In this document: piece after piece, positions 504 to 32,426 of the stretch
Layout: every line of letters begins with the position of its first letter
How positions within the stretch are numbered: the first letter of the stretch is position 1
Origin: an uncultured Faecalibacterium sp.
GTDB lineage: Bacteria > Bacillota > Clostridia > Oscillospirales > Ruminococcaceae
Direction of reading: 5' to 3'
DNA: 64,000 nucleotides
NCBI GenBank assembly: GCA_944385995.1
Contig: CALWZL010000005.1
Coordinates: forward strand, 35,447 to 99,446
Notes under the pieces: model-generated
Seen by the model: the letters and a program-made list of their open reading frames with translations, nothing else
Told to the model about the DNA's origin: nothing
The model's database searches: none
Made by a program: the position numbers and the translations under genes

Positions 504-665
504 GTGTCGGAAAAGTCTGCAACGAACTGCATCCAGAAAGCAGGGGGCCGGCAACCGCGGCGGTAGCTGGTTTTGGGCAAAAATTTTACAATAGAGTCAG
601 CAAAAGGGAAGCGGCACACAACAAGGTGGGCCGGCCCGAGACAAAAGAAATGGAGGCAAAACATT

Positions 666-1784
666 ATGAAAAACGGAAAACTGCAGGTAGCTGTTGTGGG
701 CTGTGGCGGCATTGCAAATCAGAAGCATTTCCCCGCTCTGAGCAAGCAGAGCGACAAGTGCGAGATCGTCGCTTTCTGTGACATCATCGAGGAGCGGGCC
801 AAGACGGCCGCTGCCAAGTACGGCGCCCCCGGCTGCCAGGTTACCACCGATTACATGGAAGTCATGAAGAACCCCGACGTGGACGTGGTCCATGTCTGCA
901 CCCCCAACGTGGCACACTGCCCCATCACCGTGGCCGCCTTTGAGGCCGGCAAACACGTCATGTGCGAGAAGCCCATGGCCGCCACCACCGCCGACGCTCA
1001 AAAGATGATGGACGCCTGGAAGAAGAGCGGCAAGAAGTTCACCGTCGGCTATCAGAACCGGTTCCGCACCGACTCCCAGGCTCTGAAGCGGGCCTGCGAT
1101 GAGGGCAAGCTGGGCGAGATCTACTTCGCCAAGGCACACGCTGTCCGCCGCCGCGCCGTCCCCACTTGGGGCGTCTTCCCCGACAAGTCCAAGCAGGGCG
1201 GCGGTCCGCTGATCGACATCGGCACCCACGCACTGGACATCACCCTGTGGTGCATGAACAACTACAAGCCCGTTTCGGTCATGGGCTCTGTCTTTGAGAA
1301 GCTGGGCCACCTGCCCGAGGCCACCGAGGGCAACATGTTCGGACCCTGGGACCCCAAGACCTACGAGGTGGAGGACTCCGCCTTCGGCTTCGTCAAGATG
1401 GAGAACGGCGCCACCATCTTCCTGGAGGCATCCTGGGCCCTGAACGTCAAGGATTCCCGCGAGGCAGCCTGTACCCTGTGCGGCACCAAGGCCGGCGCTG
1501 AGCAGGTGGGCGGCATGAGCCAGCAGGGCTACGACCTGGTCTTCAACGAGACCACCGGCGGCATCCTGACCGAGGAGCACATCTCGGACACCGGCGCCAT
1601 TGCCTTCTTCGAGGGCACCAACGGCGGCAGCGACGCAGACAAGGAGTGCAAGCAGTGGCTGGAAGCCATCCTGAACGACACCGAGCCCCTGGTCAAGCCC
1701 GAGCAGGCCTTCACCGTCACCCAGATCCTGGATGCCATCTATCAGTCTGCCCGTGAGGGCCGCGAGATCCGCCTGAACGGCTGA
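666..1784 (+). CDS. Gfo/Idh/MocA-family NAD(P)-dependent oxidoreductase (candidate glycoside 3-oxidase)
   Basis: 372 residues. The N-terminal Rossmann domain starts with VAVVGCGGIANQKHFPAL; the family's catalytic EKP motif is in VMCEKPMA near residue 100; the C-terminal alpha/beta domain carries GGGPLIDIGTHALD with the conserved Asp/His pair. Start chosen at ATG 666 because GGAGG lies at 652-656; the open frame extends upstream without a ribosome site. In C-glycoside-cleaving gut and soil bacteria a homologue of this family oxidises the sugar at C3 to activate the glycosidic bond; given the two deglycosidase-like genes downstream the same role is inferred here. A TACAAT at 587-592 may be its -10 box. 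Family certain, substrate inferred. Confidence 0.88.
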   Translation: MKNGKLQVAVVGCGGIANQKHFPALSKQSDKCEIVAFCDIIEERAKTAAAKYGAPGCQVTTDYMEVMKNPDVDVVHVCTPNVAHCPITVAAFEAGKHVMCEKPMAATTADAQKMMDAWKKSGKKFTVGYQNRFRTDSQALKRACDEGKLGEIYFAKAHAVRRRAVPTWGVFPDKSKQGGGPLIDIGTHALDITLWCMNNYKPVSVMGSVFEKLGHLPEATEGNMFGPWDPKTYEVEDSAFGFVKMENGATIFLEASWALNVKDSREAACTLCGTKAGAEQVGGMSQQGYDLVFNETTGGILTEEHISDTGAIAFFEGTNGGSDADKECKQWLEAILNDTEPLVKPEQAFTVTQILDAIYQSAREGREIRLNG

Positions 1785-1797
1785 GGAGGAATACGTC

Positions 1798-2718
1798 ATG
1801 AAACTCGGATTTGTTTCGGCCATTCTGGACCAAAGCAGCTATGAGGAAATGATGGACATCGCTTCCGGGATGGGTTTCCAGTGCATGGAAGTGGCCTGCT
1901 GGCCCCAGGGCAAGGCAGAGCGCCGGTATGCCGGCGTCAGCCACATCGACGCCGAGCGGGTGCTGGAGGATGACGCCTACGCCGCTCACATCCTGGACTA
2001 CGCCAAGGAAAAGAAGGTCCAGATTTCTTCTCTGGCCTACTATCCCAACACCATGGACGGCAACCTGGAAAAGCGGGCCGCCGCCGTGGAGCACCTGAAA
2101 AACCTCATCAAGGCTTCCGCCAAGCTGGGCGTCAACATGGTTACCACCTTCATCGGCCGTGACCAGACCAAGACCGTCGAGGAGAACCTGGAGCTGGTGA
2201 AGGAGGTCTGGCCTCCCATCATCGCCCTGGCCGAGGAGTGCGGCGTCAAGGTCGCCATCGAGAACTGCCCCATGCTGTTCGGTCCCGATCAGTGGCCCGG
2301 CGGCCAGAACCTGATGACCACCCCGGCCATCTGGAAGAAGGTCTTTGAGATTCTCCCCAGCAAGAACCTGGGCATCAACTACGATCCCTCCCACTTTGTG
2401 TGGCAGATGATCGACTACATCAAGCCCATCTACGAGTTCAAGGACAAGATTTTCCACGTCCACTACAAGGACATCAAGCTCTATCCCGACCGCCTGAATC
2501 AGGTGGGCATCATGGCCTATCCCCTGGACTTCATGTCTCCCAAGCTGCCCGGCCTGGGCGATGTGGATTGGGGCCGCTACGTGTCGGCGCTGACCGATAT
2601 CGGCTATGACGGCTATACCTGCATCGAGGTAGAGGACAAAGCCTTTGAGGGCAGCCAGGAGAAGGTCCTGGACAGCCTGCGCCTGAGCAAACGCTATATG
2701 GAGCAGTTTGTCATCTAA
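1798..2718 (+). CDS. Sugar phosphate isomerase/epimerase-type TIM barrel
   Basis: 306 residues, AP-endonuclease-2-like TIM barrel. The metal ligands expected for the family are visible: Glu in VAIENCPM, Asp/His in NYDPSHFVW, His in HVHYKD and Glu in CIEVEDKAFEGS. It starts 13 bp after the previous stop with a GAGGAA ribosome site, so the two are co-transcribed. Such proteins next to Gfo/Idh/MocA enzymes often act on 3-keto sugars as epimerases, isomerases or lyases. It differs from the next TIM-barrel gene by being shorter and by the WPGGQNLMTTP loop; it is probably an auxiliary 3-keto-sugar enzyme, not the deglycosidase. Its exact reaction cannot be read from sequence. Confidence 0.82.
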   Translation: MKLGFVSAILDQSSYEEMMDIASGMGFQCMEVACWPQGKAERRYAGVSHIDAERVLEDDAYAAHILDYAKEKKVQISSLAYYPNTMDGNLEKRAAAVEHLKNLIKASAKLGVNMVTTFIGRDQTKTVEENLELVKEVWPPIIALAEECGVKVAIENCPMLFGPDQWPGGQNLMTTPAIWKKVFEILPSKNLGINYDPSHFVWQMIDYIKPIYEFKDKIFHVHYKDIKLYPDRLNQVGIMAYPLDFMSPKLPGLGDVDWGRYVSALTDIGYDGYTCIEVEDKAFEGSQEKVLDSLRLSKRYMEQFVI

Positions 2719-2817
2719 ACCGAGCTAACCCGCTGGACGGAAACAGACCACAGTCTTGGAAGAGACAGCCGGGTTTCTGAAGCAGCCGGCCGCCGTTGGC
2801 GAGACTGTCCGTCCTGA

Positions 2818-2861
2818 GCGCTGCGCCGATCACTTGCCTTCAGTCGGCGCAGCGTCTTTTT
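2818..2861 (+). terminator. Terminator-like hairpin inside the glycoside locus
   Basis: An 11-bp GC-rich stem (about 2819-2829 with 2844-2854) is followed by CTTTTT. It lies between the first two genes and the predicted deglycosidase genes and would split the locus into two units, or reduce read-through. No good promoter was found directly after it (an AT-rich TATAAAAT overlaps the T-tract but lacks a spaced -35). Confidence 0.8.
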
Positions 2862-2889
2862 ATAAAATGAGAAACGGAGGAATGATTCC

Positions 2890-3900
2890 ATGTCCCGTAT
2901 TAAAGCTGGTGTCAGCCTGTACAGCCTGCAGGACCAGTACCTGACCAAGAAAATGACCCTGGAAGACATCATCCACTATGTCAAGGAGTGCGGCGCCGAG
3001 GGCATCGAGATCCTGCCCGATCAGATGCTGAAGGGTGCTCCCGACCTGACCGATGAGCAGGTGGCCGACTGGCACCGGATGCTCAAGGAGACCGGCCTGC
3101 AGCCCGTCATCGCAGATGTGTTCCTGAACACCAACCTCTATAAGAACCGCACCCTGACCCACCGGGAGTGCATCGACCTGCTGATCAAGGAAATCAAGCA
3201 GGCCAACCGTCTGGGCATCCACCTGATCCGCCTGGTGTCGATGGTGCCCTACTGGGTCATCGAGCCGCTGCTGCCCTACTGTGAGAAGTACGACGTGACC
3301 ATCGCCATCGAGGTCCACGCCGGCATGGCCTTTGATGTCAAGGCCACCAACGACTTCATCAACGAAGTCAAGCGCCTCAAGACCCCCTATGCGGGCATCG
3401 TCATCGACACCGGCATCTTCTGCCGCAAGTTCCCCCGTGTGGTCAAGAACTACGAGCTGAACAACGGCGCAAGCCCCGAGATGTTCGACTACTGCGACAA
3501 GCTGCTGGACCAGGGCACCGACCTGCACGCCGTCATCCGTCAGAACGGCGGCAAGCTGCCCGAGGACTTCGTCGCCACCTGGAAGACCCACGAGGACGAG
3601 ATCTTTGGACCTCTGTGCGACGGCTACGAGAACTATCCCTATGAGGTGATGGACGACCTGATGCCCTACATCAAGCACTTCCACTTCAAGATGTTCGAGA
3701 TGACCGACGAAGGCCCCGAGTATTCCATTGATTTCAAGGGCCTGCTGCAGTACCTGCACGATCACAACTACGACGGCTATGTCTGCACCGAGTACGAGGG
3801 CAACCGCTTCACCCTGCCCGGCCATCCCACCGTGGAGCGGGAGCAGGTGGCCCGGAACGTCAAGTATGTGCAGGCTTGCCTGAAAGAGATCCAGGGCTAA
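2890..3900 (+). CDS. Candidate C-glycoside deglycosidase alpha subunit (TIM barrel)
   Basis: 336 residues of the sugar phosphate isomerase/epimerase fold. Likely metal ligands are Glu141 (IAIEVHAG), Asp173 (VIDTGIF), His265 (KHFHFKMFEM) and Glu301 (VCTEYEGN); His143 next to Glu141 is a plausible base. The gene is followed 14 bp downstream by a small DUF6379-like gene, an arrangement known for the heterodimeric metal-dependent C-glycoside deglycosidases (DgpC/DgpB, DfgA/DfgB), which cleave the C-C bond of 3-keto C-glycosides. ATG 2890 has GGAGG at 2876-2880. The fold is clear; the deglycosidase role rests on gene pairing and context, and a plain 3-keto-O-glycoside lyase is the alternative. Confidence 0.75.
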   Translation: MSRIKAGVSLYSLQDQYLTKKMTLEDIIHYVKECGAEGIEILPDQMLKGAPDLTDEQVADWHRMLKETGLQPVIADVFLNTNLYKNRTLTHRECIDLLIKEIKQANRLGIHLIRLVSMVPYWVIEPLLPYCEKYDVTIAIEVHAGMAFDVKATNDFINEVKRLKTPYAGIVIDTGIFCRKFPRVVKNYELNNGASPEMFDYCDKLLDQGTDLHAVIRQNGGKLPEDFVATWKTHEDEIFGPLCDGYENYPYEVMDDLMPYIKHFHFKMFEMTDEGPEYSIDFKGLLQYLHDHNYDGYVCTEYEGNRFTLPGHPTVEREQVARNVKYVQACLKEIQG

Positions 3901-3914
3901 GGAGGGGATAGAAA

Positions 3915-4307
3915 ATGTTTGACAACAATGTGTTCCTGCAGGGTACCTGCAAAAATGTGTCGGAAGGCGGCAAAGTGATCGGCTTCGAGATGCAGACCAA
4001 TATCACCTACTACCGCGCTATCCCTCTGTCCATGATGGAGTACGTCCATGTCAGCGTGGACGGCGAGGCCGTGCCGGATGAGGACATCCGGGTTTCCCTG
4101 GATCAGAACGACTGGTTCACCCAGAAGGAAGCCGAGACCGTCACCACCTATAAGTGGGAGTACGGCGACCCGCTGTACATCCGGGTCCTGAAGGACGGCG
4201 GCCTGTCCAAGGGCAGCCACCAGGTCAAGCTGACGGTGGCCGTCCGCACCGCTTACATCCCCGTGCCGCTGGAGGGCACCAAAGAGCGGGAAGTCGTCAT
4301 TGACTGA
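3915..4307 (+). CDS. DUF6379-like small subunit, candidate C-glycoside deglycosidase beta subunit
   Basis: 130 residues, no signal peptide, predicted mostly beta. The start MFDNNVFLQGTCKNV, the central YYRAIPLSMMEYVHVSVDG and the FTQKEAET segment resemble the small beta subunits that pair with the TIM-barrel subunit in C-glycoside deglycosidases. GGAGG at 3901-3905 precedes ATG 3915. It is a stand-alone gene directly after its presumed partner; the beta subunit in known enzymes completes the active-site pocket. The assignment is by recalled family features and neighbourhood, not by a search. Confidence 0.7.
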   Translation: MFDNNVFLQGTCKNVSEGGKVIGFEMQTNITYYRAIPLSMMEYVHVSVDGEAVPDEDIRVSLDQNDWFTQKEAETVTTYKWEYGDPLYIRVLKDGGLSKGSHQVKLTVAVRTAYIPVPLEGTKEREVVID

Positions 4308-4327
4308 GAAGTTAAAGGAGAATCACA

Positions 4328-5290
4328 ATGGCAAAGAACGTACTCGGCATTTCCTTCGGCCGGAAGATGAGCAACACCGAAGTGATGGTCAAGGAAGCCC
4401 TGCTCCAGTGCCAGAATGCGGGCTGCACCGTCCGCTTCCTGCGCGCGGATGAGATGAACATCCACATCTGCACCGGCTGCATCTCCTGCGTGGTGGGAAT
4501 GACCACCGGCCGCGGCAAGGGCGGCTGCCCCATCAAGGACGACCTGCCCATCGTGGAAGAAGCCCTGATGGAGTCGGATGCCGTCATCATCGGTTCTCCG
4601 GTGTATGAGTTCACCCCCACCGGCAACTTCAAGGTCTGGTGCGACCGTCTGGGCCCCTCTCACGACGTGTCCTTCCGAAAGACAGCCTATGATGCAGGCA
4701 TTGCCGCCGGCAAGGACAAGAGCGAGCTGCCCGACGAGCGCAGCTTCAAAAAGCGTGTGGGCGCCCTGATCACGGTGGGCGGCGCCATGACCGAGAACTG
4801 GCTGTCCCTGGCTCTGCCCAGCATGTACGCCATGTGCGTGTCCTCGGGTATTGATGTCATCGACGCCTATAAATACTTCGGGGCCATGGCCCACGAGCAT
4901 GTCCTGGGCAATCAGCCGGTGATGGACCGGATGACCCAGCTGGGCAAGCACATCGTGGAGGCTTTGAACGCCCCCGACGAGGAGACCCGGACCCGCTGGC
5001 GCGGCGACAAGCAGGGCGTCTGCCCGGTCTGCCACAACGAGCTGCTGGAGGTGACCCACCGGGGCACCGAAATCGAGTGCCCGGTCTGTGGCATCTCGGG
5101 CAATCTGGCTGTGGAAGACGGCGAGATCAAGGTCACCTTCCCGGCGGAGCAGATCGCCCGGAGCCGCCTGTACTACGCAGGCAAGCTGGAGCACTCCACC
5201 GAGATCAAGACCAAGGCTGTCGGCCCCGGTCAGATCCCCAACCTGAAAGAGCTCAAGCAGAAATACCTTCACATCGGTGAACAGCAGTAA
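4328..5290 (+). CDS. Flavodoxin-fold FMN reductase with C-terminal zinc ribbon
   Basis: 320 residues. Residues 1-220 form an NADPH-dependent FMN-reductase/flavodoxin domain (LGISFGRKMSNTE phosphate loop, IGSPVYEFTPTG flavin loop) with a Cys-rich turn ICTGCISC typical of clostridial members. A C-terminal four-Cys zinc ribbon (CPVCH ... CPVCG, about residues 236-260) follows. It is clearly paralogous to the product of 25263-26210, the first gene of the second locus. In a glycoside cluster it may reduce a flavonoid-like aglycone (ene-reduction) or supply reduced flavin; the first is my preference and is inference. AAGGAG precedes ATG 4328; its last bases overlap nothing and the next ribosome site starts right after its stop. 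Confidence 0.8.
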   Translation: MAKNVLGISFGRKMSNTEVMVKEALLQCQNAGCTVRFLRADEMNIHICTGCISCVVGMTTGRGKGGCPIKDDLPIVEEALMESDAVIIGSPVYEFTPTGNFKVWCDRLGPSHDVSFRKTAYDAGIAAGKDKSELPDERSFKKRVGALITVGGAMTENWLSLALPSMYAMCVSSGIDVIDAYKYFGAMAHEHVLGNQPVMDRMTQLGKHIVEALNAPDEETRTRWRGDKQGVCPVCHNELLEVTHRGTEIECPVCGISGNLAVEDGEIKVTFPAEQIARSRLYYAGKLEHSTEIKTKAVGPGQIPNLKELKQKYLHIGEQQ

Positions 5291-5303
5291 GGGGGAGCGC
5301 CCT

Positions 5304-6374
5304 ATGGATGAGATTCGCGTTGCCATCATCGGCCATGGCTTCATGGGCCATGAAGACGAGACCATGCTTTTGAAGATGCCCGGCATCAAGCTGGTGGGCT
5401 TTTCGGACATCGATCCCAAACAGCTGGAAGATGTAGCCCCCGGTCTCAAGCGGTACGCCAGCAATGAAGAACTGCTGGCCGACCCGGAAGTCCAGGTGGT
5501 CATCATCGCCGCCAACAACAACCAGCATCACAAGCTGGTCTGCCAGGCCGCCCGCGCCGGCAAGGACATCCTGTGCGAAAAGCCGGTGGCCATGACGGTG
5601 GAAGAGCTGGACGACATGGTGAAGGTGGTCAAGGAGTGCGGCGTCAAATTCACGGTGCATCACCAGCGCCGGTTCGACCCGGATTTCCGCACCATCAAAG
5701 AAGTGTATGACAGCGGCACCCTGGGGGATGTCTACAAGATCAAAACGGGCCTGTATGGGTTCAACGGCAATATGCACGACTGGCACATCTACCGCAGCGA
5801 AGGCGGCGGAATGCTCTATGACTGGGGCGTCCACCTGCTGGATCAGATGCTCTGGATGATGCCGGGGGTCAAGATCAAACAGGTGTTCGCCGACGTGCGG
5901 AACGTCATCAATGCAGAGGTGGACGACTACTTCAAGATTCTGCTGCGGATGGACAACGGCATCACGGCAGAAGTGGAGCTGGGCACCTACCTGCTCACCG
6001 ACAAGCAGCACGACAAATGGTTCGAGCGCCACTGGCTCATCAGCGGCAATAAGGGCAGCGCCTATGTGGACGGCTTTGAGCCGGAAGGCAAGATTGTCCG
6101 CACCACCCATCTGCTGACCAACGTGGGCGGCCACCGCACCATGACGGCGGCCGGGCCCACCCGGTCCTTCGGGCCGCCGCCCGAGGGCACCATCGTTACC
6201 GAGCCGCTGCCCCAGGTGGATACCTGCCACCAGGACTATTTCCGCAACTACATCAAAGCCTGGCACGGCGAGGAAGATTTCCTGGTCAAGATCCCGGAGA
6301 CCCGCCGTGTGCTGGCTCTGATGGAAGCGGCGCGGGAATCTGCCCGCTCCGGCAGATCGGTGGATTTTGAATAA
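5304..6374 (+). CDS. Second Gfo/Idh/MocA-family oxidoreductase
   Basis: 356 residues. Rossmann start VAIIGHGFMGHEDE, catalytic EKPVAM motif, and GGGMLYDWGVHLLDQ in the C-terminal domain. ATG 5304 has GGGGGAGC at 5291-5298. It is only moderately similar to the first oxidoreductase, and two copies in one locus fit a cycle in which one oxidises the glycoside at C3 and the other re-reduces the released 3-keto-glucose. Which does which is not decided by sequence. The gene ends the second co-directional block; a hairpin and then the transporter follow. Confidence 0.86.
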   Translation: MDEIRVAIIGHGFMGHEDETMLLKMPGIKLVGFSDIDPKQLEDVAPGLKRYASNEELLADPEVQVVIIAANNNQHHKLVCQAARAGKDILCEKPVAMTVEELDDMVKVVKECGVKFTVHHQRRFDPDFRTIKEVYDSGTLGDVYKIKTGLYGFNGNMHDWHIYRSEGGGMLYDWGVHLLDQMLWMMPGVKIKQVFADVRNVINAEVDDYFKILLRMDNGITAEVELGTYLLTDKQHDKWFERHWLISGNKGSAYVDGFEPEGKIVRTTHLLTNVGGHRTMTAAGPTRSFGPPPEGTIVTEPLPQVDTCHQDYFRNYIKAWHGEEDFLVKIPETRRVLALMEAARESARSGRSVDFE

Positions 6375-6439
6375 GGTTTATCAGGAGCGTTCCCGTTGTG
6401 TTTCGGCGGGTCGGCCGGTGAAAGGCTGACCTATGGATC

Positions 6440-6480
6440 AAGCGGGGGTGTCGGCTCGTGGATAAATGCGGCCCCCGCTT
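6440..6480 (+). terminator. Weak hairpin before symporter gene
   Basis: A 9-bp stem AAGCGGGGG/CCCCCGCTT (6440-6448 with 6472-6480) is followed by TTATCTTT, not a clean T-run. It probably lowers rather than stops transcription into the symporter gene. Confidence 0.45.
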
Positions 6481-6514
6481 TATCTTTGGCTATACCAAAG
6501 GAGGAATAACGATC

Positions 6515-7900
6515 ATGAACAGCAGCAATACCACCAAGCAGCTGGCCAGCAAAGCGGCTGTCATCTGCTATGGATTCGGCGATTTGGCGTCCCAGTTTGT
6601 CTGGACCTTCGTCGGCTCCTACCTGACCATTTTCTATACCGATATCGTGGGCCTTGCGCCCATCGCCGTCTCGGCCATCATGATGGGCGCCCGCATCTGG
6701 GACGCCATCAACGACCCCATGATGGGCGCCATTGCCGAGCGGACCCGCAGCCGCTGGGGCCGGTTCCGTCCGTACATTGCCTTTGGCTGCCCCTTCCTGG
6801 CGGTGATGTCGGTTCTGACGTTCACCCATCCGTTTGACGGCGGTTCCAGTGCAGGCGTGATCTGGGCGGCGGTTACCTACATCGTTGCAGGCATGCTGTA
6901 CACCCTGGTCAACATTCCCTATGGTGCTTTGGCCGCTGTCATGACCGAGGATACCAACCAGCGCAACCTGATTACCACTTCCCGCAACATCGGCATGAAC
7001 CTGGGCATGGTCATCGTCAACGGCCTGTCTGCGACCCTGATGCTGAAATTCTCCGGCGAGGGCGCAGAAGTGGCCAACGGCAATGGCTATATGATGACCG
7101 CCGTGGTCTACGCCATCATTTCCATCCCGCTGTTCCTGCTGGTGTTTGCCACCTCCAAAGAGGTTGTCAAACCCATCGGCAAAGCCGGCAAGTTCTCCTT
7201 CAGCGAGACCATCGGCAACCTGGTCAAGAATAAGTACCTGATGATCATCACCCTGGTGATGGTGCTCCAGATGACCGCTTTCATGGGCCGCATCGCGGTG
7301 ACTTCCTACTACGTCATTTACTGCCTGGGCTCCTTCACCATGATCGCCACCATCATGACCATCCCTTCCATCGGCGCAATCATTGGTTCCTTCTTTGCCC
7401 CGGCTCTGGCCAAGAAGGTTGGCACCCGGAACGCACTGGCCGGCACCATGGCGGTTCAGGGCATCGGCCTGGTCATCATGTACCTGGCTCCCTTTGACAA
7501 CATGACCATGGTTCTGGTGGGCGACTGGATCTTCGGTATCTTCAACGTCGGTTTTGCCTACTCCCTGTCGATGGTGGCGGACGCCGTCGATTACATGGAC
7601 TGGAAGACCGGTGTCCGTACCGACGGTACTGCCTACGCCACCTACGGCCTGGCCACCAAGTTCGGCAACGCCTTCGGCGGTTCCATCGGCGTTCTGCTGC
7701 TGGCCTCCTTCGGCTATGTGGCCAACGCACAGCAGACCCCCGAGGCTATGGCCGGCATCAACACGGTGGTCAACCTGATCCCTGCCATCATCTTCTTTCT
7801 GGGCGCTGCCGCCTGCCTGCTCTGGGACAAGAGCGATAAGGATATGGAGCAGCTTCGTGAAGAAGTGAAGGCCCGCAACAACACCAAAAAAGAAGACTGA
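6515..7900 (+). CDS. GPH-type (MelB-like) glycoside:cation symporter
   Basis: 461 residues with about twelve hydrophobic segments. The N-terminal part (CYGFGDLASQFVWTF, then FYTDIVGLAPIAVSAIMMGARIWDAINDPMMG) is the hallmark of the glycoside-pentoside-hexuronide symporters, including the Asp pair of the cation site and the R-x-R-WG-R loop (RTRSRWGRFRPYI). Start at ATG 6515 with AAAGGAGG at 6497-6504. Placed after the deglycosidase and oxidoreductase genes, it is the probable importer of the glycoside substrate. Sodium or proton coupling cannot be told. Confidence 0.9.
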   Translation: MNSSNTTKQLASKAAVICYGFGDLASQFVWTFVGSYLTIFYTDIVGLAPIAVSAIMMGARIWDAINDPMMGAIAERTRSRWGRFRPYIAFGCPFLAVMSVLTFTHPFDGGSSAGVIWAAVTYIVAGMLYTLVNIPYGALAAVMTEDTNQRNLITTSRNIGMNLGMVIVNGLSATLMLKFSGEGAEVANGNGYMMTAVVYAIISIPLFLLVFATSKEVVKPIGKAGKFSFSETIGNLVKNKYLMIITLVMVLQMTAFMGRIAVTSYYVIYCLGSFTMIATIMTIPSIGAIIGSFFAPALAKKVGTRNALAGTMAVQGIGLVIMYLAPFDNMTMVLVGDWIFGIFNVGFAYSLSMVADAVDYMDWKTGVRTDGTAYATYGLATKFGNAFGGSIGVLLLASFGYVANAQQTPEAMAGINTVVNLIPAIIFFLGAAACLLWDKSDKDMEQLREEVKARNNTKKED

Positions 7901-14237: not shown

Positions 14238-14260
14238 TTTGCGTGGATGGGATAGCCGTG

Positions 14261-14905: not shown

Positions 14906-14917
14906 TGTGGTTTCTCC

Positions 14918-16606: not shown

Positions 16607-16628
16607 AGCGTCTCCTTGTAAAAAAGGC

Positions 16629-16681: not shown

Positions 16682-16687
16682 GTGATT

Positions 16688-17518: not shown

Positions 17519-17530
17519 GGTTCCGCCTCC

Positions 17531-24442: not shown

Positions 24443-25054
24443 TCAAGGCTGCATCAGTTCCCGGAAAGTGCGGAACGTCCCCTGTTTCATATTGTTGCGC
24501 ATCAGATCCTGTACATCGCGGGCTGTGACCGTGTCTTTGTATTTCATCCACCACCGCACCAGCGTCATCATGTCAGAGGCAAACAGACGGGCATAGAGGT
24601 CAGCGTAGGGAGAGACCTGGAATCTGACTTCTTGGGGATGGCTGCACAGGGTTTCAAGGATGGCGTCATGCACAATGTCAATCATCCGGCTGAAGACGCT
24701 TTCTTCCAGAGGAATCGACCACAGCAGGGTGTATTCTTTCTGGTGCTTGTAGAGGAAGCGGAGGACGTTCTCGAAATTCTTCTGGTAGACCACATCGTGA
24801 ATGTGACTGGGTGAGGCGTTGACAAAAGCCACATCCACCTGACGCCGAAACCCGTCCAGAGCCCGCTGCAAATATCGCTCCATCAGGTCATATTTGCTGG
24901 TGTAATATTTATAGAAAGTCGAGCGGTTGATGAGGGCCGCGCGGCACAGCTGCTCCACCGTAATTTTTTCAAAAGGGGTGTCGGCCAGACATTCCAGCAG
25001 TGCACGATCGATTTGTTTCAGGGTTTTGACCACCCGCAGGTCCGTCTGAGCCAT
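24443..25054 (-). CDS. TetR/AcrR-family transcriptional regulator
   Basis: 203 residues. N-terminal HTH (residues about 8-55: LKQIDRALLECLADTPFEKITVEQLCRAALINRSTFYKYYTSKYDL) and a helical ligand-binding domain of the kind common in clostridial TetR proteins. It is divergent from the redox/hydrolase operon starting at 25263, with 208 bp between starts that hold repeats (see 25075 and 25176), so it is the likely local regulator, perhaps sensing an aromatic substrate. Confidence 0.9.
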   Translation of the reverse strand: MAQTDLRVVKTLKQIDRALLECLADTPFEKITVEQLCRAALINRSTFYKYYTSKYDLMERYLQRALDGFRRQVDVAFVNASPSHIHDVVYQKNFENVLRFLYKHQKEYTLLWSIPLEESVFSRMIDIVHDAILETLCSHPQEVRFQVSPYADLYARLFASDMMTLVRWWMKYKDTVTARDVQDLMRNNMKQGTFRTFRELMQP

Positions 25055-25074: not shown

Positions 25075-25119
25075 GATAAACAACAGAAAAGACGCCGTGT
25101 GTTGGATAAACAGCAGAAA
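25075..25119. repeat. Direct repeat in divergent regulatory region
   Basis: GATAAACAACAGAAA at 25075-25089 and GATAAACAGCAGAAA at 25105-25119, one mismatch, 30 bp apart (about three helical turns). Located just upstream of the tetR start; candidate regulator-binding pair. Confidence 0.6.
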
Positions 25120-25262: not shown

Positions 25263-26210
25263 ATGGCTTACAAAATCATGGGGATTACGGCGGGCCGCAA
25301 AAATGGCAACAGCGAGATTCTGCTGAAGGAAGCGCTGATGGCCTGCGAAGAGGCCGGGGCCGAAGTCACGATGATTAACCTGCGCGATTTTCACCTGATC
25401 GACTGCACCGGCTGCACTGCCTGCACCAAGGCGATGTCGACGGGCAAACACGCCGGCTGCGTCCTGGACGAAAAGGACGACAAGAAAAAGATCATGGATG
25501 TGATGCTGAACCAGGACGCGGTGATCTTCTCGGTTCCCACCTATGACCTGATGCCCGCTTCGGTGTACCTGACCTTTGCACACCGGAGCCTGAGCTACGA
25601 GACCTCCTTCCTGGAGACCATCGGCGCCATCGAGCACAAGGACCGGGTGGCGGGCCTGATTTCGGTAGGCGGTTCCACCCGTTCCTGGCAGTCGATGGCC
25701 CTGGAAGGGCTGCAGGCCACCATGTTCACCACCGATATGAAGGTGGTGGATATGCTGCTGGCCACCCGGGTGCCCGCACCCGGTCAGTGCCTGCTGGATG
25801 ACAAGCTGATGGCCCGGGCCCGGAAGCTGGGCGAGCACATCATGGAGGCCGTCCAGACCCCCGCCGACCAGCGCAAGTGGCTGGGCGAGGAGGATATGGG
25901 CTGGTGCCCCAACTGCCACAGCAATGCCCTGGTCCTGGGCGAAATGCAGTGGGACGGCTTGCACTATCCCGTTGAGTGCCAGGTCTGCGGTGCCGGCGGC
26001 ACCCTGGAAAAGACCGAGGACGGCAAGTGGAAATTTGTCATCCAGAAGGATGGTCTGCTGAAGGACCGCACCACCGTGGCGGGCCGGGCCAAGCACTTGG
26101 AAGAGATTGCCCAGACCCAGGGCGGTTTCTTCTCGGACCCCGTCAAGATCAAGCTGGTGCAGGAAAAGAAAGCCGTTTATGCCCAGAAGAAATTCAAGGG
26201 CATTGAATGA
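25263..26210 (+). CDS. Flavodoxin-fold FMN reductase with C-terminal zinc ribbon (second paralogue)
   Basis: 315 residues. Flavodoxin-like domain (IMGITAGRKNGNSEILLKEAL phosphate loop; IFSVPTYDLMPAS) with a Cys-rich turn CTGCTACTKAMSTGKHAGC, and a four-Cys ribbon WCPNCH ... CQVCG near residues 224-250. Paralogous to 4328-5290 over its whole length. ATG 25263 has AGGAG upstream; the frame runs further up without a ribosome site. As first gene of an operon with a PhlG-like hydrolase, it is a candidate ene-reductase or flavin donor acting on an aromatic substrate. I recall that flavone reductase of gut bacteria is an unusual FMN enzyme, but did not verify homology. Confidence 0.82.
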   Translation: MAYKIMGITAGRKNGNSEILLKEALMACEEAGAEVTMINLRDFHLIDCTGCTACTKAMSTGKHAGCVLDEKDDKKKIMDVMLNQDAVIFSVPTYDLMPASVYLTFAHRSLSYETSFLETIGAIEHKDRVAGLISVGGSTRSWQSMALEGLQATMFTTDMKVVDMLLATRVPAPGQCLLDDKLMARARKLGEHIMEAVQTPADQRKWLGEEDMGWCPNCHSNALVLGEMQWDGLHYPVECQVCGAGGTLEKTEDGKWKFVIQKDGLLKDRTTVAGRAKHLEEIAQTQGGFFSDPVKIKLVQEKKAVYAQKKFKGIE

Positions 26211-26238
26211 TAAACACTTTTAAGAAAGGAGTTTTTCC

Positions 26239-28359
26239 ATGAGCGTCGCCATTGAAATAGACGGCAAACGCCTGCAGGTGGAACCCGGCACCAGCGTGCT
26301 GGAAGCCGCATTGCAGAATGGCATCTACATTCCCCATCTGTGCCATCACCCCGACCTGCCGGACATCGGTTCCTGCCGGCTGTGCATCGTCGAAGTGGAA
26401 GGGGAGGAGGGCGTCCAGCCCGCCTGTAAGCTGACGGTAAAAGAGGGGATGAAGGTCACCACCGACAGCCCCCGAATTGCGCCTTTGCGCAAGCTGGCCA
26501 TGGAGCTTTTGCTGGCAGCCCACCCCGAGGACTGCTCCACCTGCCCCAAGTATGGCCGGTGCGAACTGCAAACCCTGATCCAGTACATGGGGGTGTCGGC
26601 TACCCGGATGCACACCCGGGTGAAAGGCTTTGCCCAGAACAACAAAAACCCCCTCTACATCCACGACATGAACCGGTGTGTCCTGTGCGGCCGGTGCGTC
26701 CGGGCCTGCAATGACTTGCGGGGCGTGGGGGTCCTCCAGTACAACAAGAAAGAGCTGGAAACCTGCGTGGGCACCCTCCACGAAATGCTGCTGAAGGACG
26801 CCGGCTGCCGGTTCTGCGGCGCCTGCGCCGAAGTCTGCCCCACCGGCACCATCCGGGATATCATCGAGTATTCTCCCATCGAGAAGAAGGACACCCTGAT
26901 TCCCTGCCAGGCCACCTGCCCGGTCCACACCGAGGTGCCCCGGTATGTCCGGTATGTGAAGGAAGGCAAATATGCCGAGGCCCTGGCCGTGGTCCACGAA
27001 AAACTGCCCTTCCCCGAGTGCCTGGGCCATGTCTGCGCCCATCCCTGTGAGAAAAAGTGCCGCCGCGGGGATGTGAACGACCCCGTTTCCATCCGCAATA
27101 TCAAGCGGTACGCCGCCGAGCACGGCAGCGACGAGCTGTGGAAGAAGAACAGCAAACACTTGCCCGCCACCGGCAAGAAGGTCTGCGTGGTGGGCGGCGG
27201 CCCCGCCGGCATGACCGCAGCCTACTACCTGGCCAAGCAGGGCCACGACGTGACCCTGAAAGAGGCGTTCCCCACCCTGGGCGGTCAGATGGCCTACGGC
27301 ATTCCGTCCTACCGTCTGCCCCGGGAGGTGGTGGCCAAAGAGGCCGGCTACCTGACCGACGCGGGGGTCCATGTGGAAACCAACTGCCGGGTCACCGACT
27401 TTGTGGGCCTGGCGAAGGAGTACGACGCCGTTCTGCTGGCCCTGGGCACTCATAAGGGAGTCCGGCTGCCCATGCAGGGCAACGACCTGCCCGGGGTGCT
27501 GGTCAACAGCGATTTCCTGTACAACGCCGCCACCGGTCAGGAGACCGGGATGGGCAAGCGGGTGATTGTGCTGGGCGGCGGCAACGTGGCCTTTGACTGT
27601 GCCCGCACCGCCAAGCGTCTGGGGGCCGAGGAAATCCACCTGGCCTGCCTGGAAGCCCGGGAGAAGATGCTGGCCGATGAGGAAGAGATCACCCAGGCCC
27701 AAGAGGAGGGAATCCAGATTCATCCCGCCCACACCTTCGAGGCCATTGTGGGCACCGACCACGCCGAAGGCGTCAAGTTCTGTCGGGTGAAGTCCTTCAC
27801 CTTTGACGAGAACCGCCGCGCCCACATCGAGAAGGAAGAGAATTCCGAATACGTCATCGGGGCGGATACGGTGATTTTCGCCACCGGCCAGCGGACCGAG
27901 ATCACCCCCGAAGCGGGCCTGGAGCTGGGCCGCGCCAATTCCATTGCCGTCAAGCCGGGCAGCCTCCAGACCAGCGTTCCCGGCATCTATGCCTGCGGCG
28001 ACGCCGTCTACGGCACCCGCACCGTGGTGGAGGCCGTGGGCGCAGGCCGTGCCGCCGCCAGTGAAATCGACATCGCCCTGGGCGGCGACGGGGACATCAG
28101 CGAAGTGCTGGCCCCGGTGGAGAAGCTGGACCCCTGGATCGGCAAGGTGGAAGGTTTTGGCGACAAGGCCCGGGCGGAGGAATGCTTCCTCTGCGCCAAG
28201 GACCGCAGCGATAGCTTCACCCCCATCAGCAAGGGCATTGCAGATGGAGAGATCTGCGGCGAGGCGGGCCGGTGCCTCCAGTGCGACCTGCGGTTCCAGA
28301 TCACCGGCCACCGGATTTGGAGCGACTACATTCACGAGGAAAAGGAGGGGGTACAATGA
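26239..28359 (+). CDS. NuoG-like iron-sulfur / GltD-like NAD(P)-binding redox subunit
   Basis: 706 residues. In order: [2Fe-2S] domain with Cys35, Cys46, Cys49, Cys63; the NuoG HxxxCxxCx5C motif (His95, Cys99, Cys102, Cys108); two [4Fe-4S] motifs (CVLCGRCVRACN and CRFCGACAEVC); then a GltD/NfnB-like half with its own Cys cluster (CQATCP...CGHVC region) and two dinucleotide sites, GGGPAGMTAAYYL and VLGGGNVAFDCAR. It should take electrons from NAD(P)H and pass them through iron-sulfur centres to the next gene's product. The stop overlaps the next start (ATGA at 28356-28359), so equimolar subunits of one complex are likely. Flavin-based electron bifurcation is possible but unproven. Confidence 0.88.
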   Translation: MSVAIEIDGKRLQVEPGTSVLEAALQNGIYIPHLCHHPDLPDIGSCRLCIVEVEGEEGVQPACKLTVKEGMKVTTDSPRIAPLRKLAMELLLAAHPEDCSTCPKYGRCELQTLIQYMGVSATRMHTRVKGFAQNNKNPLYIHDMNRCVLCGRCVRACNDLRGVGVLQYNKKELETCVGTLHEMLLKDAGCRFCGACAEVCPTGTIRDIIEYSPIEKKDTLIPCQATCPVHTEVPRYVRYVKEGKYAEALAVVHEKLPFPECLGHVCAHPCEKKCRRGDVNDPVSIRNIKRYAAEHGSDELWKKNSKHLPATGKKVCVVGGGPAGMTAAYYLAKQGHDVTLKEAFPTLGGQMAYGIPSYRLPREVVAKEAGYLTDAGVHVETNCRVTDFVGLAKEYDAVLLALGTHKGVRLPMQGNDLPGVLVNSDFLYNAATGQETGMGKRVIVLGGGNVAFDCARTAKRLGAEEIHLACLEAREKMLADEEEITQAQEEGIQIHPAHTFEAIVGTDHAEGVKFCRVKSFTFDENRRAHIEKEENSEYVIGADTVIFATGQRTEITPEAGLELGRANSIAVKPGSLQTSVPGIYACGDAVYGTRTVVEAVGAGRAAASEIDIALGGDGDISEVLAPVEKLDPWIGKVEGFGDKARAEECFLCAKDRSDSFTPISKGIADGEICGEAGRCLQCDLRFQITGHRIWSDYIHEEKEGVQ

Positions 28360-31091
28360 GCTTGCTGCAAAACAATACCGAGGCTTTGAACCGCCTGCGG
28401 AAGATCACCAAAGCGGAGCTGGAAGGCATGTTCGGCACGATGGCGCCGGTAAATGGCAAGGTGGTGGGTGCCCTTTACAACGCCGACACCGACGGGATGA
28501 AGAACATTCTTCTTCATGCCAACCCCGCCGGCCTGATGGCGGGCCTGAAAATCGCCGCTGTTCTGACCGGTGCATCCGGTGCGGAACTGGTGGTGCGGGA
28601 AGAGCTGGACCCCCAGGAACTGTTGGCAGATGCCGGCATGGTGGACCTGCCCCTCACCGTGACCCGGGCCGCTCTGGTGAACAAGATGCTTTACAAGCAG
28701 GACAAGCTGTTCTGCCTGGATGAGCTGGCCGCGATGGCCGACCGCCTGTTGGGCGGCCAGCCGGGTGTGCTGGTGTCGGTGGACGACGGCGTCCCCGCCG
28801 AGGAACCTGCTTCCCGTCCGGTGACCGAGCTGGTGGGGGAGTGCAAGGGGATTCTGGCAGGTCACAGCCTGTATCCTGCCGCCAAGCTGGCAGGGCTGAC
28901 GGTGGCAGACGTGACCGGCCGCAGCGGTGTGATCCATCGCCTGACCGAAACCAGCTGCCCGGTCCATGAAGCCCAGGCCCAGCTGCTGGCCCTGCGCCAG
29001 CAGAGCTGCGGCAAGTGCACCTTCTGCCGGGAGGGACTGTATCAGCTAAACGCCCTGATGGAGGACGCAGCCAACGGCCGGTCCAAGCCCGCCGATATGG
29101 ATTTGGCCAAAGAAATCGGCCAGGCCATGACCATTTCCTGCAATTGCACCCTGGGCGAAGAAGCTGCCCTGCCGGTGCTGACGGCATTGGACGGCTTTGA
29201 GTCGGAAGTGATGGCCCATGTCCGGCGCAAGGAATGCCCGGCGGGCGCATGCCTGGCTTTGACCCAGTTCTATGTAGACCCCAAGCGCTGCATGGGCAGC
29301 GGCGCCTGCGTGGATGCCTGCCCGGCCCACTGCATCGAAGGCGGCCCCGGCCTGGTGGCGGTGATCGACAGCTTTGACTGCACCCGCTGCGGCAAATGCC
29401 TGGAAGTCTGCGCCAGCGGCGCCATCCAGAAAACTTCCGGCCGCCTGCCCAAGCTCCCCACGGCCCCGGTCCCCGTCAAGGGCGCAAAGCCCGCCGCCGA
29501 GGCTGCACCCGACCAGCCGGCCCGTGCCCCTGTTAAGCGCAAGCGTCTGTTTGCCAATCTGTCCCAGCCCGCCGTCCAAGAATCCGCCCCCGCGGCCAAG
29601 ACCGAGGAGGCCAAACCTGTTGAGGTGAAGATCATGAAAACCATCGAAACCGATGTCGTCATCGTAGCCGGCGGTCCTGCCGGCCTGGCCGCCGCCGTCA
29701 CCGTGGGCGAGCACGGCCTGAAGTCCGTGATTTTGGAGAAGTCCAGCGCCACCGGCGGCGCCGCCAACATGGGCATGGGCCCCCTGGGCATCGACACCAA
29801 GATTCAGCGCGCCGCCTTCAACAACATCAGCGTGGAGCAGGCCCTCAAGATGCACATGGAATACACCCACTACCGTGTGGATGAAGACCTGGTGCAGACC
29901 TACTTCCACAAGAGTGCCGACACCATCGACTGGCTGCAGGAGATGGGCGTGGAGTTTGCCGGCGCCTTCCGTTACTTCAAGGAGTCGGAGGCCACCTGGC
30001 ACATTGTCAAGCCCGAGAACGGAGTGATCGGACCCCGTGCGGCCGGCGCCATGGTCAAGGTCCTGACCGAGCGTGCCCGGGAGCTGGGCTGCGAGATTCT
30101 CACCGAGACCCCCGCCACCTCCCTGATTGCCGAGAACGGCAAAGTCTGCGGCGCCGTGGCCGTGGATAAGGACGGCAACGGCATCGAAGTCCGGGGCAAA
30201 GCGGTCCTGGTGGCCACCGGTGGCTTTGGCAACAACCCCGAGATGATCGAGAAGGAGTTCGGCCTCCACATCGGCAAGGACTACTTCCCGTTCCGCATTC
30301 CCGGCATCACCGGCGACGGCCTGAAGATGATGTGGGCGGTGGGTGCCGAGAAGTTCGGCGCCAACATCGAGGCCATCTACCAGCTGCCCGACAACCTGAA
30401 CTGGTTCCTGCTGGATGCCGTGCTCCGCCAGCCCAACCTGATGATCAACCAGTTCGGCGACCGGTTCATGAACGAGGGCGACCTGGGCAACACCACCTAT
30501 GCGGGCAACGCCCTGGCCCTCCAGCCGGGCAACTACGGCTACTGCATCATGGATGAAGGCATCCTGAAGCAGTACAAGAAGAACGGCCCGGATATTGTGG
30601 ACATCGTCCACCCGGCAGAAGCCTTCCTGAACTTTGACGGCCAGGCCAAGCTGGCGGTGGAGCAGGGCTACGAGGCCTACTTTGAGGCTGAGACGGTGCC
30701 TGAGCTGGCCGAAAAGCTGGGCATCGACCCCGACAAGCTCCAGCAGACCCTGGACGAGTACAATGCCATGTGCCGCTGCGGCGTGGACAGCCAGTTCCAC
30801 AAGGAGCAGAAGTACCTGCACCCCATCACCGGCAAGGGCAAGTATCTGGTGGGCAAGTATTATCTGGGCGCCTACGGCACGGTGGGCGGCGTTCGCGTCA
30901 ACAAGTATTGCGAGGTCCTGAACAAGGATCACCTGCCCATCGAGGGCCTGTACAGCGCCGGTTCCGACGCCAACACCCTCTACGGCGACAGCTACAACTT
31001 CACCCTCCCCGGCAACTCGATGGGCTTTGCGGTGAACTCGGGCCGTATGGCCGGCGAGGCCATGGCCCAGTACATTGCCGACTGCCAGTAA
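28356..31091 (+). CDS. Fusion: NuoF remnant + 2[4Fe-4S] ferredoxin + fumarate-reductase-type flavoprotein
   Basis: 911 residues. Residues about 1-200 are a degenerate NuoF/SLBB-like region with no recognisable NADH/FMN loop. The NuoF [4Fe-4S] motif is intact (SCGKCTFCREG, Cys218/221/224, with Cys264). Residues 305-355 are a two-cluster ferredoxin (CMGSGACVDACP, CTRCGKCLEVC). A Pro/Ala/Lys linker (365-425) leads to an FAD_binding_2 flavoprotein (VVIVAGGPAGLAAAV at 433; RFMNEGD; TVGGVRVN; SMGFAVNSGRMAGE). This makes an electron wire from the partner subunit to an FAD active site. Fumarate itself is unlikely as substrate because the usual catalytic His/Arg pattern is not seen; an unsaturated aromatic acid or flavonoid intermediate is my inference. 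Confidence 0.87.
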   Translation: MSLLQNNTEALNRLRKITKAELEGMFGTMAPVNGKVVGALYNADTDGMKNILLHANPAGLMAGLKIAAVLTGASGAELVVREELDPQELLADAGMVDLPLTVTRAALVNKMLYKQDKLFCLDELAAMADRLLGGQPGVLVSVDDGVPAEEPASRPVTELVGECKGILAGHSLYPAAKLAGLTVADVTGRSGVIHRLTETSCPVHEAQAQLLALRQQSCGKCTFCREGLYQLNALMEDAANGRSKPADMDLAKEIGQAMTISCNCTLGEEAALPVLTALDGFESEVMAHVRRKECPAGACLALTQFYVDPKRCMGSGACVDACPAHCIEGGPGLVAVIDSFDCTRCGKCLEVCASGAIQKTSGRLPKLPTAPVPVKGAKPAAEAAPDQPARAPVKRKRLFANLSQPAVQESAPAAKTEEAKPVEVKIMKTIETDVVIVAGGPAGLAAAVTVGEHGLKSVILEKSSATGGAANMGMGPLGIDTKIQRAAFNNISVEQALKMHMEYTHYRVDEDLVQTYFHKSADTIDWLQEMGVEFAGAFRYFKESEATWHIVKPENGVIGPRAAGAMVKVLTERARELGCEILTETPATSLIAENGKVCGAVAVDKDGNGIEVRGKAVLVATGGFGNNPEMIEKEFGLHIGKDYFPFRIPGITGDGLKMMWAVGAEKFGANIEAIYQLPDNLNWFLLDAVLRQPNLMINQFGDRFMNEGDLGNTTYAGNALALQPGNYGYCIMDEGILKQYKKNGPDIVDIVHPAEAFLNFDGQAKLAVEQGYEAYFEAETVPELAEKLGIDPDKLQQTLDEYNAMCRCGVDSQFHKEQKYLHPITGKGKYLVGKYYLGAYGTVGGVRVNKYCEVLNKDHLPIEGLYSAGSDANTLYGDSYNFTLPGNSMGFAVNSGRMAGEAMAQYIADCQ

Positions 31092-31107
31092 CGGAGGCGG
31101 TCTGGGA

Positions 31108-31638
31108 ATGAGCAAACGAGCTGAAACCTGGACCCTGGCCCTCTGCATCGCCCTGCTGCCGCCCATCTGGGCGGTGCTGGCGCCCTATGTTGGGGTGACC
31201 ACCGGGGCGGTGGCCCTGATCTGTGCCGGTCTGTGCGCCGCCAACGGGGACAAGGCCGCCGACGCGCCCCGGGTCTCCATCGGCTTTCTGCTGGGGGATT
31301 TCTGGGCCTGGCTGGCCCTCTGGATCATGGACCGGATGCCCTGGAACCCGGACGCCGAATTGTTCGGCACCCTGTTTGTGCTGGGCGGTCTGGCGGTGCT
31401 GGTGTCGTCTTTGGCGCCGCGGCTGATTTTCTGCCCGGCCTGGCTCTGCGGCTGGGCCATTGGGCTGACGATTTTGTCCCCGGTGGGGCTGGCCAATCTC
31501 GGCAGCTTGCCGGTCCAGATCGGCGCGGCCATGCTGGCCGGAGTCTGGTATGTAGGCGTATTTCTGAATATTGTGCGGGGCCGGATGCTGCGCTGGTGCA
31601 CAGACCGGGATGCCCGCCGGAAGGAGGATTCCCAATGA
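31108..31638 (+). CDS. Membrane protein of unknown function (DUF1097-like)
   Basis: 176 residues, five or six hydrophobic segments, short basic C-terminus. The arrangement of paired helices with GFLLGDFWAWLALWIMD recalls DUF1097 proteins; not certain. ATG 31108 follows GGAGGCGG at 31093-31100. Its stop overlaps the start of the hydrolase gene (31635-31638). In this operon it might move the substrate or a product across the membrane; there is no direct evidence. Confidence 0.75.
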   Translation: MSKRAETWTLALCIALLPPIWAVLAPYVGVTTGAVALICAGLCAANGDKAADAPRVSIGFLLGDFWAWLALWIMDRMPWNPDAELFGTLFVLGGLAVLVSSLAPRLIFCPAWLCGWAIGLTILSPVGLANLGSLPVQIGAAMLAGVWYVGVFLNIVRGRMLRWCTDRDARRKEDSQ

Positions 31639-32426
31639 AAAAAGTAGGCGTCAGCCGGGAGGAAAAAGAACTCCCTTACTACAAGTATTTCACCAAGCCC
31701 CTGGCCGAAGTGCCGGCCGAAAAGCTGGCGGTTCTGGCCGGCGGTCCCAGCCCGGTCCGGGCGGTGCCCTTTGAGGAACGGAACTTGTTCCTGAAAGGGG
31801 AGGACAAGGCCTATTGCCAGATGGGCTATGGCGTGGCCGAGGACGGCACCGCCTTTGTCTGCAACGAGACCTATATGCCCGGCGTCACCGGCGAAATGAT
31901 GGACTGGTGGTTCCCCTGGCACAGCGTGGGCTCCGACCTGCGGTATAAGATTTGGGACCCCGAAGACCACTACTTCGCCCGGGCCGACCGGGCAGACTAC
32001 GTCTGCGACCCCTCGGTTCCCATGAACCAGAAGACCTGGGGCGTCAACCACTACATCATCGAGGATGTGGGCCCCGGCCCCGCGTTTTTGAAGCTCTGCT
32101 TCAAGAGCCCGGCGGACTTCGGCTATGACGAGGACGCGGTGGGCACCGATGTCTGTCAGTCTCTGGTCTGCGCCATCGGGGAGGGGGGCTGCCCCGCCGC
32201 CATGACCCACAAATGGTACCCCTATCGGGACGGCATCCTGTTTGTCTCCCGGTTCTGGATCGGCTATGCGCTGGTGGATGGGCAGTTCCAAAAGATCCTC
32301 CCCGAGGGCGCCCGGGTGCCGGACATGGTGCCCAAGGGTCTGTTTGCCCACAACATCAAGGAATTCACCAATCTGGCCTCCATCCTGCCCAGCCTGTGGC
32401 AGGAGATGGGCAAGCTGCCTCTGTAA
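31635..32426 (+). CDS. PhlG/phloretin-hydrolase-like C-C hydrolase
   Basis: 263 residues of the DAPG hydrolase family. The four zinc ligands of PhlG (His, Glu 31 residues on, then His-x3-Glu) have clear counterparts: His112 (DPEDHYF), Glu143 (YIIEDVG), His239 and Glu243 (AHNIKEF). WWFPWHSVG, RYKIWDP and HKWYPYRDG are further family features. In gut bacteria the related phloretin hydrolase splits dihydrochalcones into phloroglucinol and an aryl-propionate. ATG 31635 overlaps the previous stop, with AAGGAGG at 31620-31626. The operon thus looks like a polyphenol pathway ending in C-C cleavage. Family strong, substrate inferred. Confidence 0.87.
   Translation: MKKVGVSREEKELPYYKYFTKPLAEVPAEKLAVLAGGPSPVRAVPFEERNLFLKGEDKAYCQMGYGVAEDGTAFVCNETYMPGVTGEMMDWWFPWHSVGSDLRYKIWDPEDHYFARADRADYVCDPSVPMNQKTWGVNHYIIEDVGPGPAFLKLCFKSPADFGYDEDAVGTDVCQSLVCAIGEGGCPAAMTHKWYPYRDGILFVSRFWIGYALVDGQFQKILPEGARVPDMVPKGLFAHNIKEFTNLASILPSLWQEMGKLPL

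Follow-up and report, generated by a model that had tools for sequence, protein, structure and literature searches.

A TetR-linked operon that joins flavone reductase-like and phloretin hydrolase-like genes to a predicted NADPH-wired Fe-S flavoprotein complex in an uncultured Faecalibacterium

Gene content of the operon

We analysed a 64,000-nucleotide stretch (the window) of contig CALWZL010000005.1 from an uncultured Faecalibacterium sp., of which positions 25263-32426 hold five genes on the same strand with intergenic gaps of less than 30 bp and two ATGA overlaps. Genes 1 and 2 lie 28 bp apart and genes 3 and 4 16 bp apart, while genes 2 and 3, and likewise genes 4 and 5, overlap by ATGA; a TetR-family gene is divergent to them. 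A preliminary description, made from the letters of the window, had proposed a five-gene operon with overlapping starts and stops at this place, which we confirmed, the coordinates and Pfam content being in agreement. The features are as follows.

24443..25054, minus strand: TetR-family regulator, divergent to the operon (Pfam TetR_N, 4.9e-7)
25075..25112, no strand assigned: putative operator GATAAACAACA ... TGTTGGATAAACA in the gap between the TetR gene and the operon, spotted by eye in an alignment of relatives
25263..26210, plus strand: gene 1, flavone reductase (FLR)-like, 315 aa; FMN_red family (Pfam, 4.5e-10), with a C-terminal Cys motif and tail
26239..28359, plus strand: gene 2, StnC-like electron input subunit, a NuoG/GltD fusion of 706 aa (Pfam Fer2_4, NADH-G_4Fe-4S_3, Fer4_20, Pyr_redox_2)
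28356..31091, plus strand: gene 3, NuoF-like/FrdA fusion (Pfam NADH_4Fe-4S, 4.2e-20; FAD_binding_2, 5.3e-52)
28356..29435, plus strand: gene 3 residues 1-360, NuoF/HydB-like bridge with NADH_4Fe-4S and two [4Fe-4S] clusters predicted, and without the FMN-binding loop
29652..31091, plus strand: gene 3 residues 433-911, FrdA-type FAD domain (FAD_binding_2), the probable catalytic site
31108..31638, plus strand: gene 4, DUF1097 membrane protein (PF06496, 3e-18)
31635..32426, plus strand: gene 5, phloretin hydrolase (Phy) orthologue, 263 aa (DAPG_hydrolase, PF18089, 3.7e-70)

Enzymes encoded by the operon

Gene 1 had been described as an FMN reductase. The family assignment stands, and a sharper identity can be given, since the sole strong match in the PDB is the ene-reductase 7d38 (E 4e-31, query residues 4-291, 31% identity). 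From the agreement of residue numbers with PMC7862272 it follows that 7d38 is FLR of F. plautii. Mutation of G106, W149, H271 or I275 lowered FLR activity (PMC7862272), and the alignment places equivalents of W149, H271 and I275 in gene 1. The gene shares 65% identity with the E. ramulus FLR homologue at locus L129 (loci and genomes are designated by L and G numbers), where the FLR gene is directly followed by a gene for a reductase of the old yellow enzyme (OYE) type. An E. ramulus FLR homologue 66.6% identical to C. ljungdahlii FLR has been reported (PMC12940152); two E. ramulus candidates exceed 50% identity to gene 1, and either could be that homologue. Deletion of FLR in C. ljungdahlii is reported to have abolished the use of all four flavones and flavonols tested. 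By these comparisons gene 1 is an FLR homologue, predicted to be of the flavone-reductase type.

Gene 5 scores 236 bits against PF18089, the DAPG hydrolase family (curated cut-off, 22.7), and matches the M. abscessus phloretin hydrolase 5xe5 (E 1e-20) and PhlG 3hwp (E 1e-19) in the PDB. E. ramulus has two strong members of this family (L056/L120 and L107) and a weak third, and gene 5 is 73% identical to the first and 44% to the second. In a published screen (PMC8398226, section 11), a Dialister succinatiphilus protein was about 60% identical to E. ramulus Phy; the Dialister protein is 63% identical to L056 and 43% to L107, and we therefore take L056 to be the characterised Phy, an identification made indirectly through this benchmark, protein size and residue numbers rather than an accession. 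L056 has 274 aa (30.9 kDa), and gene 5 falls with it in a single clade of 37 rows (support 95/91), L107 lying outside. L056 carries H123, E154, H251 and E255, which presumably correspond to the residues mutated in published work on Phy. The counterparts in gene 5, H112, E143, H239 and E243, which we take to be the zinc ligands of PhlG and Phy, are present in 67/67 sequences, a count that covers 67 of the 81 Phy sequences (14 were fragments of less than 230 aa or were lost in the choice of open reading frame). Gene 5 is thus classified as a Phy orthologue, in keeping with the phloretin-hydrolase-like end enzyme of the preliminary description; Phy requires a dihydrochalcone-type substrate. Separately, a second PhlG-like gene is present at L107 (E. 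ramulus) and L108 (E. oxidoreducens), between neighbours that by eye resemble a 2-nitropropane-dioxygenase gene and a FrdA-like flavoprotein gene, possibly marking another acylphenol pathway.

Gene 2 combines NuoG-type Fe-S domains with GltD-type FAD/NAD(P)H domains, and the NAD(P)H-to-Fe-S input subunit proposed earlier is thereby borne out. Its best PDB match is 9bov_A (E 4e-129), followed by 8oh5_C (StnC) and 9n5u_A. StnC, with its Lys170 and Arg239, is described as a wire from NADPH to Fe-S that does not bifurcate (PMC10482914). Gene 2 keeps the equivalents of K170 and R239, and Cys114 is replaced by Val (counted by hand on the alignment). Over residues 1-360, gene 3 has the HydB/StnB fold: 8a6t_B and 9bov_B align well by sequence for residues 185-359 alone, with residues 1-184 barely matched, and the AlphaFold model matches 9bp5_B, 9n5v_B and 8oh5_B. 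Only the confident N-terminal part of that model was used (mean pLDDT 64.6 overall, with a poor FrdA half). The FMN-loop motif was not found in any of the 25 bridge proteins searched; the unfused E. ramulus homologue gives a match of 8e-4, under the cut-off, to PF01512, the model of the FMN domain, which by its sequence appears to be a remnant of that domain.

The two genes thus resemble the Stn/NfnABC transhydrogenases in the StnC-like gene 2 and the StnB/HydB-like N-terminus of gene 3, but differ in the loss of the FMN loop, the lack of a StnA-like gene in the operon, the added FrdA domain, the order NuoG then GltD, and the Val at C114. No NuoE-like (StnA) gene is among the five operon genes, the rest of the genome not having been searched for one. 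Electron bifurcation, whether at NuoF or at the FAD of the GltD domain, is disfavoured, because the StnC-type Lys (K170) rather than the NfnB Glu is kept and the FMN loop and an operon NuoE-like gene are absent. Electrons would probably pass, without bifurcation, from NADPH to FAD, the Fe-S chain, the bridge, the FrdA FAD and the substrate.

The FrdA domain is highly conserved across 17 fused homologues, and PF00724, the OYE barrel, is absent from genes 2 and 3 at E 0.001. The FrdA part of gene 3 shares the FAD_binding_2 domain with FrdA-type ene-reductases such as flavocytochrome c fumarate reductase, urocanate reductase and VprA, but lacks the fumarate-site Arg and His and is fused to an Fe-S bridge. 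The positions aligned with the active-site Arg402, His505 and Arg544 class residues of fumarate reductase differ, and an identity as fumarate reductase was rejected on these grounds. VprA vinylphenol reductase is the best curated model (314.7 bits; NCBIfam equivalog cut-off, 600). As a separate observation, L073 has at 12423-18353, next to a further Phy orthologue, three distant genes of FrdA-like, NuoF-like (618 aa) and NuoG-like type, together with one of 174 aa that by eye resembles NuoE; this set may be an NADH-type counterpart of the wired complex.

Distribution, gene arrangements and genomic context

Among 396 genomes of the window's family, PF18089 occurs in 10 and window-type Phy in 8, namely the genome of the window itself and seven others at 77-85% identity, one of the seven interrupted and one partial. 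The FrdA domain (at least 85%) occurs in 7 family genomes, all among the 8 Phy carriers, and in 0/388 others (Fisher p 2.8e-14, kinship uncorrected); it was not found in the eighth carrier, G364. The contig concerned (L027/L018, G364:C5) keeps FLR, DUF1097, Phy and a piece of the NuoG part; gene 3 and the GltD part are absent there, owing to an internal deletion or an assembly error.

A broader survey covered 80 of the 85 Phy loci found. The FrdA subunit (at least 45%) is encoded in 24 of these 80 loci, and the gene set, whose occurrence in other genomes the preliminary description had left to be checked, recurs with Phy in five arrangements:

FLR-2-3-4-Phy, as in the window (gene 4 undetected in L099 and L106)
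2-3-4-Phy without FLR (L037, L038, L040, L101, and L028, which also lacks gene 4)
4-Phy-2-3-FLR (L043)
4-Phy-FLR-2-3 (L098, L100)
unfused FLR-FrdA-2-NuoF, past an antisense PucR gene that adjoins Phy (L044, L046, L047, L061, L069, L072)

L030 and L035 are cut or incomplete loci, and in E. ramulus and its kin the complex stands in an operon of its own, together with a PucR gene. The genomes of the five FLR-less module loci also lack FLR at 45% or more, those of L028 and L101 giving no FLR match at E 1e-25. In two loci, Phy is damaged while FLR and genes 2-3 are intact: Fournierella massiliensis L033 (6470-7267, interrupted) and Gemmiger An194 L106 (10022-10384, truncated). In such strains reduction alone may be worthwhile, as an electron sink or for detoxification. 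DUF1097 adjoins Phy in 21/80 loci, 5 of the 21 with no reductive module in the surrounding DNA, and its product is a possible candidate for a phenolic transporter.

A TetR homologue directly adjoins the operon in 12 of the 24 module loci. Both halves of the putative TetR operator GATAAACAACA/TGTTGGATAAACA recur in 5 of the 8 aligned stretches, one half in 2/8 and neither in 1/8 (L029). The operon leader of the window also contains, at 25176-25226, an 11-bp perfect inverted repeat (GTGCGAGCTCT/AGAGCTCGCAC) that is not evident in the aligned relatives.

For genome-wide presence we used 50 Phy genomes, drawn from 50 of the 80 loci; the module lies next to Phy in 24 of them and not in the other 26, and kinship was uncorrected throughout. 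In 6/6 Lacrimispora-type loci, Phy and the module neighbour phloroglucinol genes: TfD, PGR, DPGC, TAL, thiolase and CoA-transferase precede Phy (assigned by Pfam for L044), as known from the phloroglucinol-degradation cluster of C. scatologenes (PMC10470551). DPGC (at least 72%), the ring-cleaving key enzyme of that degradation cluster, is present in 6/24 module and 11/26 non-module genomes, and was not found in the window's genome G000 in a search over 51 genomes; because of this, phloroglucinol would leave that organism as an end product.

A second cluster, resembling the DgpABC C-glycoside deglycosidase clusters, lies on the plus strand at 663..7900, 17 kb upstream of the operon, as recognised by Pfam and PDB matches. 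It encodes homologues of DgpB and DgpC and, as a cluster separate from the operon, has its own FLR-like gene; two GFO/IDH oxidoreductases are among its products.

663-1784, plus strand: DgpA-like, by Pfam family alone
1798-2718, plus strand: TIM barrel (Pfam)
2890-3900, plus strand: DgpC (PDB 9m3b_A, E 1.2e-122)
3915-4307, plus strand: DgpB (PF19906; PDB 9m3b_B, E 8.8e-42)
4328-5290, plus strand: FLR paralogue, 32% identical to the operon FLR
5298-6374, plus strand: GFO/IDH oxidoreductase (Pfam)
6512-7900, plus strand: sugar transporter (Pfam)

We looked for this cluster near the module in 5 genomes, three of them picked because the module's contig also bears an FLR paralogue. All genes but the transporter, six in number, recur at 65-85% identity about 8-10 kb from a TetR-module-Phy operon in three Mediterraneibacter genomes (L229, L230, L231), which belong to another family and are those of L037 (Mediterraneibacter glycyrrhizinilyticus), L038 (M. 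catenae) and L040. The cluster was not found in the roughly 17 kb upstream of the module in G421 and G402. By its gene content and position, it may supply flavonoid aglycones from glycosides to the same pathway.

Possible reactions of the complex

In the known set of FLR, the flavonoid-cleaving reductase Fcr and Phy (Clostridium butyricum, C. ljungdahlii, E. ramulus), reported as operon-like in C. butyricum, FLR-family and Phy genes share an operon as in the window, whereas the window has the NADPH/Fe-S/FrdA complex where a linked OYE-type Fcr would be, with DUF1097 and TetR genes as extras. The preliminary description had suggested that the flavoprotein replaces the usual OYE-type enoate reductase. 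The OYEs of E. ramulus loci L128 and L129 are candidates for the characterised Fcr, and with the L129 protein as query, OYEs of this type (at least 73%, one as fragments) were detected in 0/24 module and 11/26 non-module genomes (p 2.7e-4). In the 24 module genomes, the best match to this FLR-linked OYE reached 39%, none attaining 45%. These counts favour replacement, but FrdA (at least 45%) occurs in all 24 module genomes and in 13/26 non-module genomes, including all 11 OYE carriers, and the idea that Fcr and FrdA strictly exclude each other, which 11/26 against 0/24 had suggested, was dropped for that reason. FLR (at least 45%) is present in 18/24 module and 9/26 non-module genomes, that is, in 27/37 FrdA-positive and 0/13 FrdA-negative genomes (p 3e-6). 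The presence and absence data thus link FLR, FrdA and Phy, and support the replacement of Fcr by FrdA in part.

Gene set, orthology, cofactor motifs and linkage are what the sequences provide, and from them we infer every reaction, that of the FrdA complex above all. The explanation that we judge probable is a TetR-controlled cytosolic pathway for flavonoid aglycones with a wired FrdA reductase acting before Phy. FLR would saturate the C2=C3 bond of flavones and flavonols. In the two-subunit complex, NADPH electrons would enter at the GltD-type FAD and run through the NuoG-type Fe-S clusters and the flavin-less NuoF-like bridge to the FrdA-type FAD domain, which would reductively open the flavanone C-ring or reduce the ring-opened chalcone, yielding a dihydrochalcone such as phloretin. 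Phy would then hydrolyse the dihydrochalcone to 3-(hydroxyphenyl)propionate and phloroglucinol, DUF1097 would probably carry a phenolic across the membrane, and the window's organism would release the phloroglucinol. For the complex, the simplest proposal is that it turns naringenin, or the corresponding chalcone, into phloretin, because L028 and L101 pair it with Phy in genomes where no FLR was found. The flavonoid-aglycone role itself is well supported by orthology and linkage: the earlier proposal of such a pathway fits the Phy orthologue, the FLR homologue, the six loci with phloroglucinol genes, and the C-glycoside cluster in the window and in 3 of the 5 other genomes. As in the preliminary description, no chalcone isomerase (CHI) is seen among the annotated genes, a genome-wide search not having been made; flavanone cleavage has been reported for C. 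butyricum, in which a CHI gene was likewise not detectable.

Several observations weigh against a wired reductase acting before Phy. In gene 1, D103 and G106 of FLR are not conserved, the position of G106 being a gap, likewise in the E. ramulus homologue. The 11 OYE carriers keep a separate FrdA copy away from Phy (10 at 65-73%, one at 48%), which in those genomes may serve another role. Sequence does not fix the substrate of the FrdA domain, the VprA score being under its cut-off. Distant OYE proteins (26-39%) occur in 21/24 module genomes, with OYE matches also in G000, and an unlinked Fcr in these genomes is possible; a published Fcr candidate of C. butyricum is reported to be just 32% identical to E. 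ramulus Fcr.

These diverged OYE proteins would also fit a different division of labour, in which FLR-type reductases, acting on the flavone C2=C3 bond, have the FrdA complex as their physiological source of electrons or partner, and the C-ring is cleaved by an unlinked, diverged OYE-type Fcr. The published FLR assay used added NADH:FMN oxidoreductase, FLR and FrdA co-occur as counted above, and at three FLR-less module loci (L037, L038 and L040) the C-glycoside cluster, some 10 kb off, contains a diverged FLR paralogue. However, a mere donor would not need a highly conserved FrdA domain, and the genomes of L028 and L101 gave no FLR match for it to serve. FLR homologues at 63-65% also occur in 7 family genomes without Phy or FrdA matches, six of their loci being L220-L225 (at L224 the choice of open reading frame masked the FLR gene); these count against the wired reductase before Phy and also against a donor role, which we regard as unlikely.

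Unlikely, too, is that the complex reduces some other phenolic double bond (that of a hydroxycinnamate or vinylphenol released through Phy cleavage of a chalcone not reduced beforehand, or that of an isoflavone) and is merely co-regulated with flavone reduction. That VprA is the best curated model, and that E. ramulus, with its Fcr-like OYEs, retains the complex as a separate operon, are consistent with such a role. The complex is, however, linked in differing arrangements with genes for FLR, Phy and phloroglucinol degradation, which argues against that role, as does the VprA cut-off not attained, and the loss of counterparts to the carboxylate-site Arg and His of fumarate reductase speaks weakly against an acid substrate. 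Action on another C-acylated phenol, for example of the diacetylphloroglucinol type, with flavonoids not the natural substrate, is very improbable: PF18089 covers PhlG as well as Phy, but gene 5 is 73% identical to L056 and reaches 77 bits on the PhlG equivalog model (cut-off, 600), an FLR gene stands in the same operon, and C-glycoside deglycosidase genes lie within the window.

To return to the wired FrdA reductase before Phy, the enzyme kinds FLR and Phy are known, whereas no description of the complex in a flavonoid context was found in the open literature searched (further papers cited are PMC11170127, section 17, and PMC11868195); by that measure, the proposed link of an NADPH-wired Fe-S flavoprotein complex to the flavonoid pathway is new. 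If the complex does perform the Fcr step, screens that seek Fcr overlook degraders in which FLR and Phy are accompanied by the complex instead of a close Fcr. Natural variants exist in named strains, with the operon intact, with Phy interrupted, or with the operon joined to phloroglucinol genes; cultured carriers are Butyricicoccus pullicaecorum DSM 23266, Fournierella massiliensis DSM 100451 (Phy interrupted in its assembly) and [Clostridium] aerotolerans DSM 5434. Tentatively, the complex may represent a second class of reductase that cleaves flavonoids and is not of the OYE type, a Stn-type transhydrogenase minus its NADH/FMN site and plus a FrdA domain, that opens the C-ring or reduces the chalcone, and through which dietary flavonoids would serve as a soluble electron sink in many Firmicutes of the gut and rumen.

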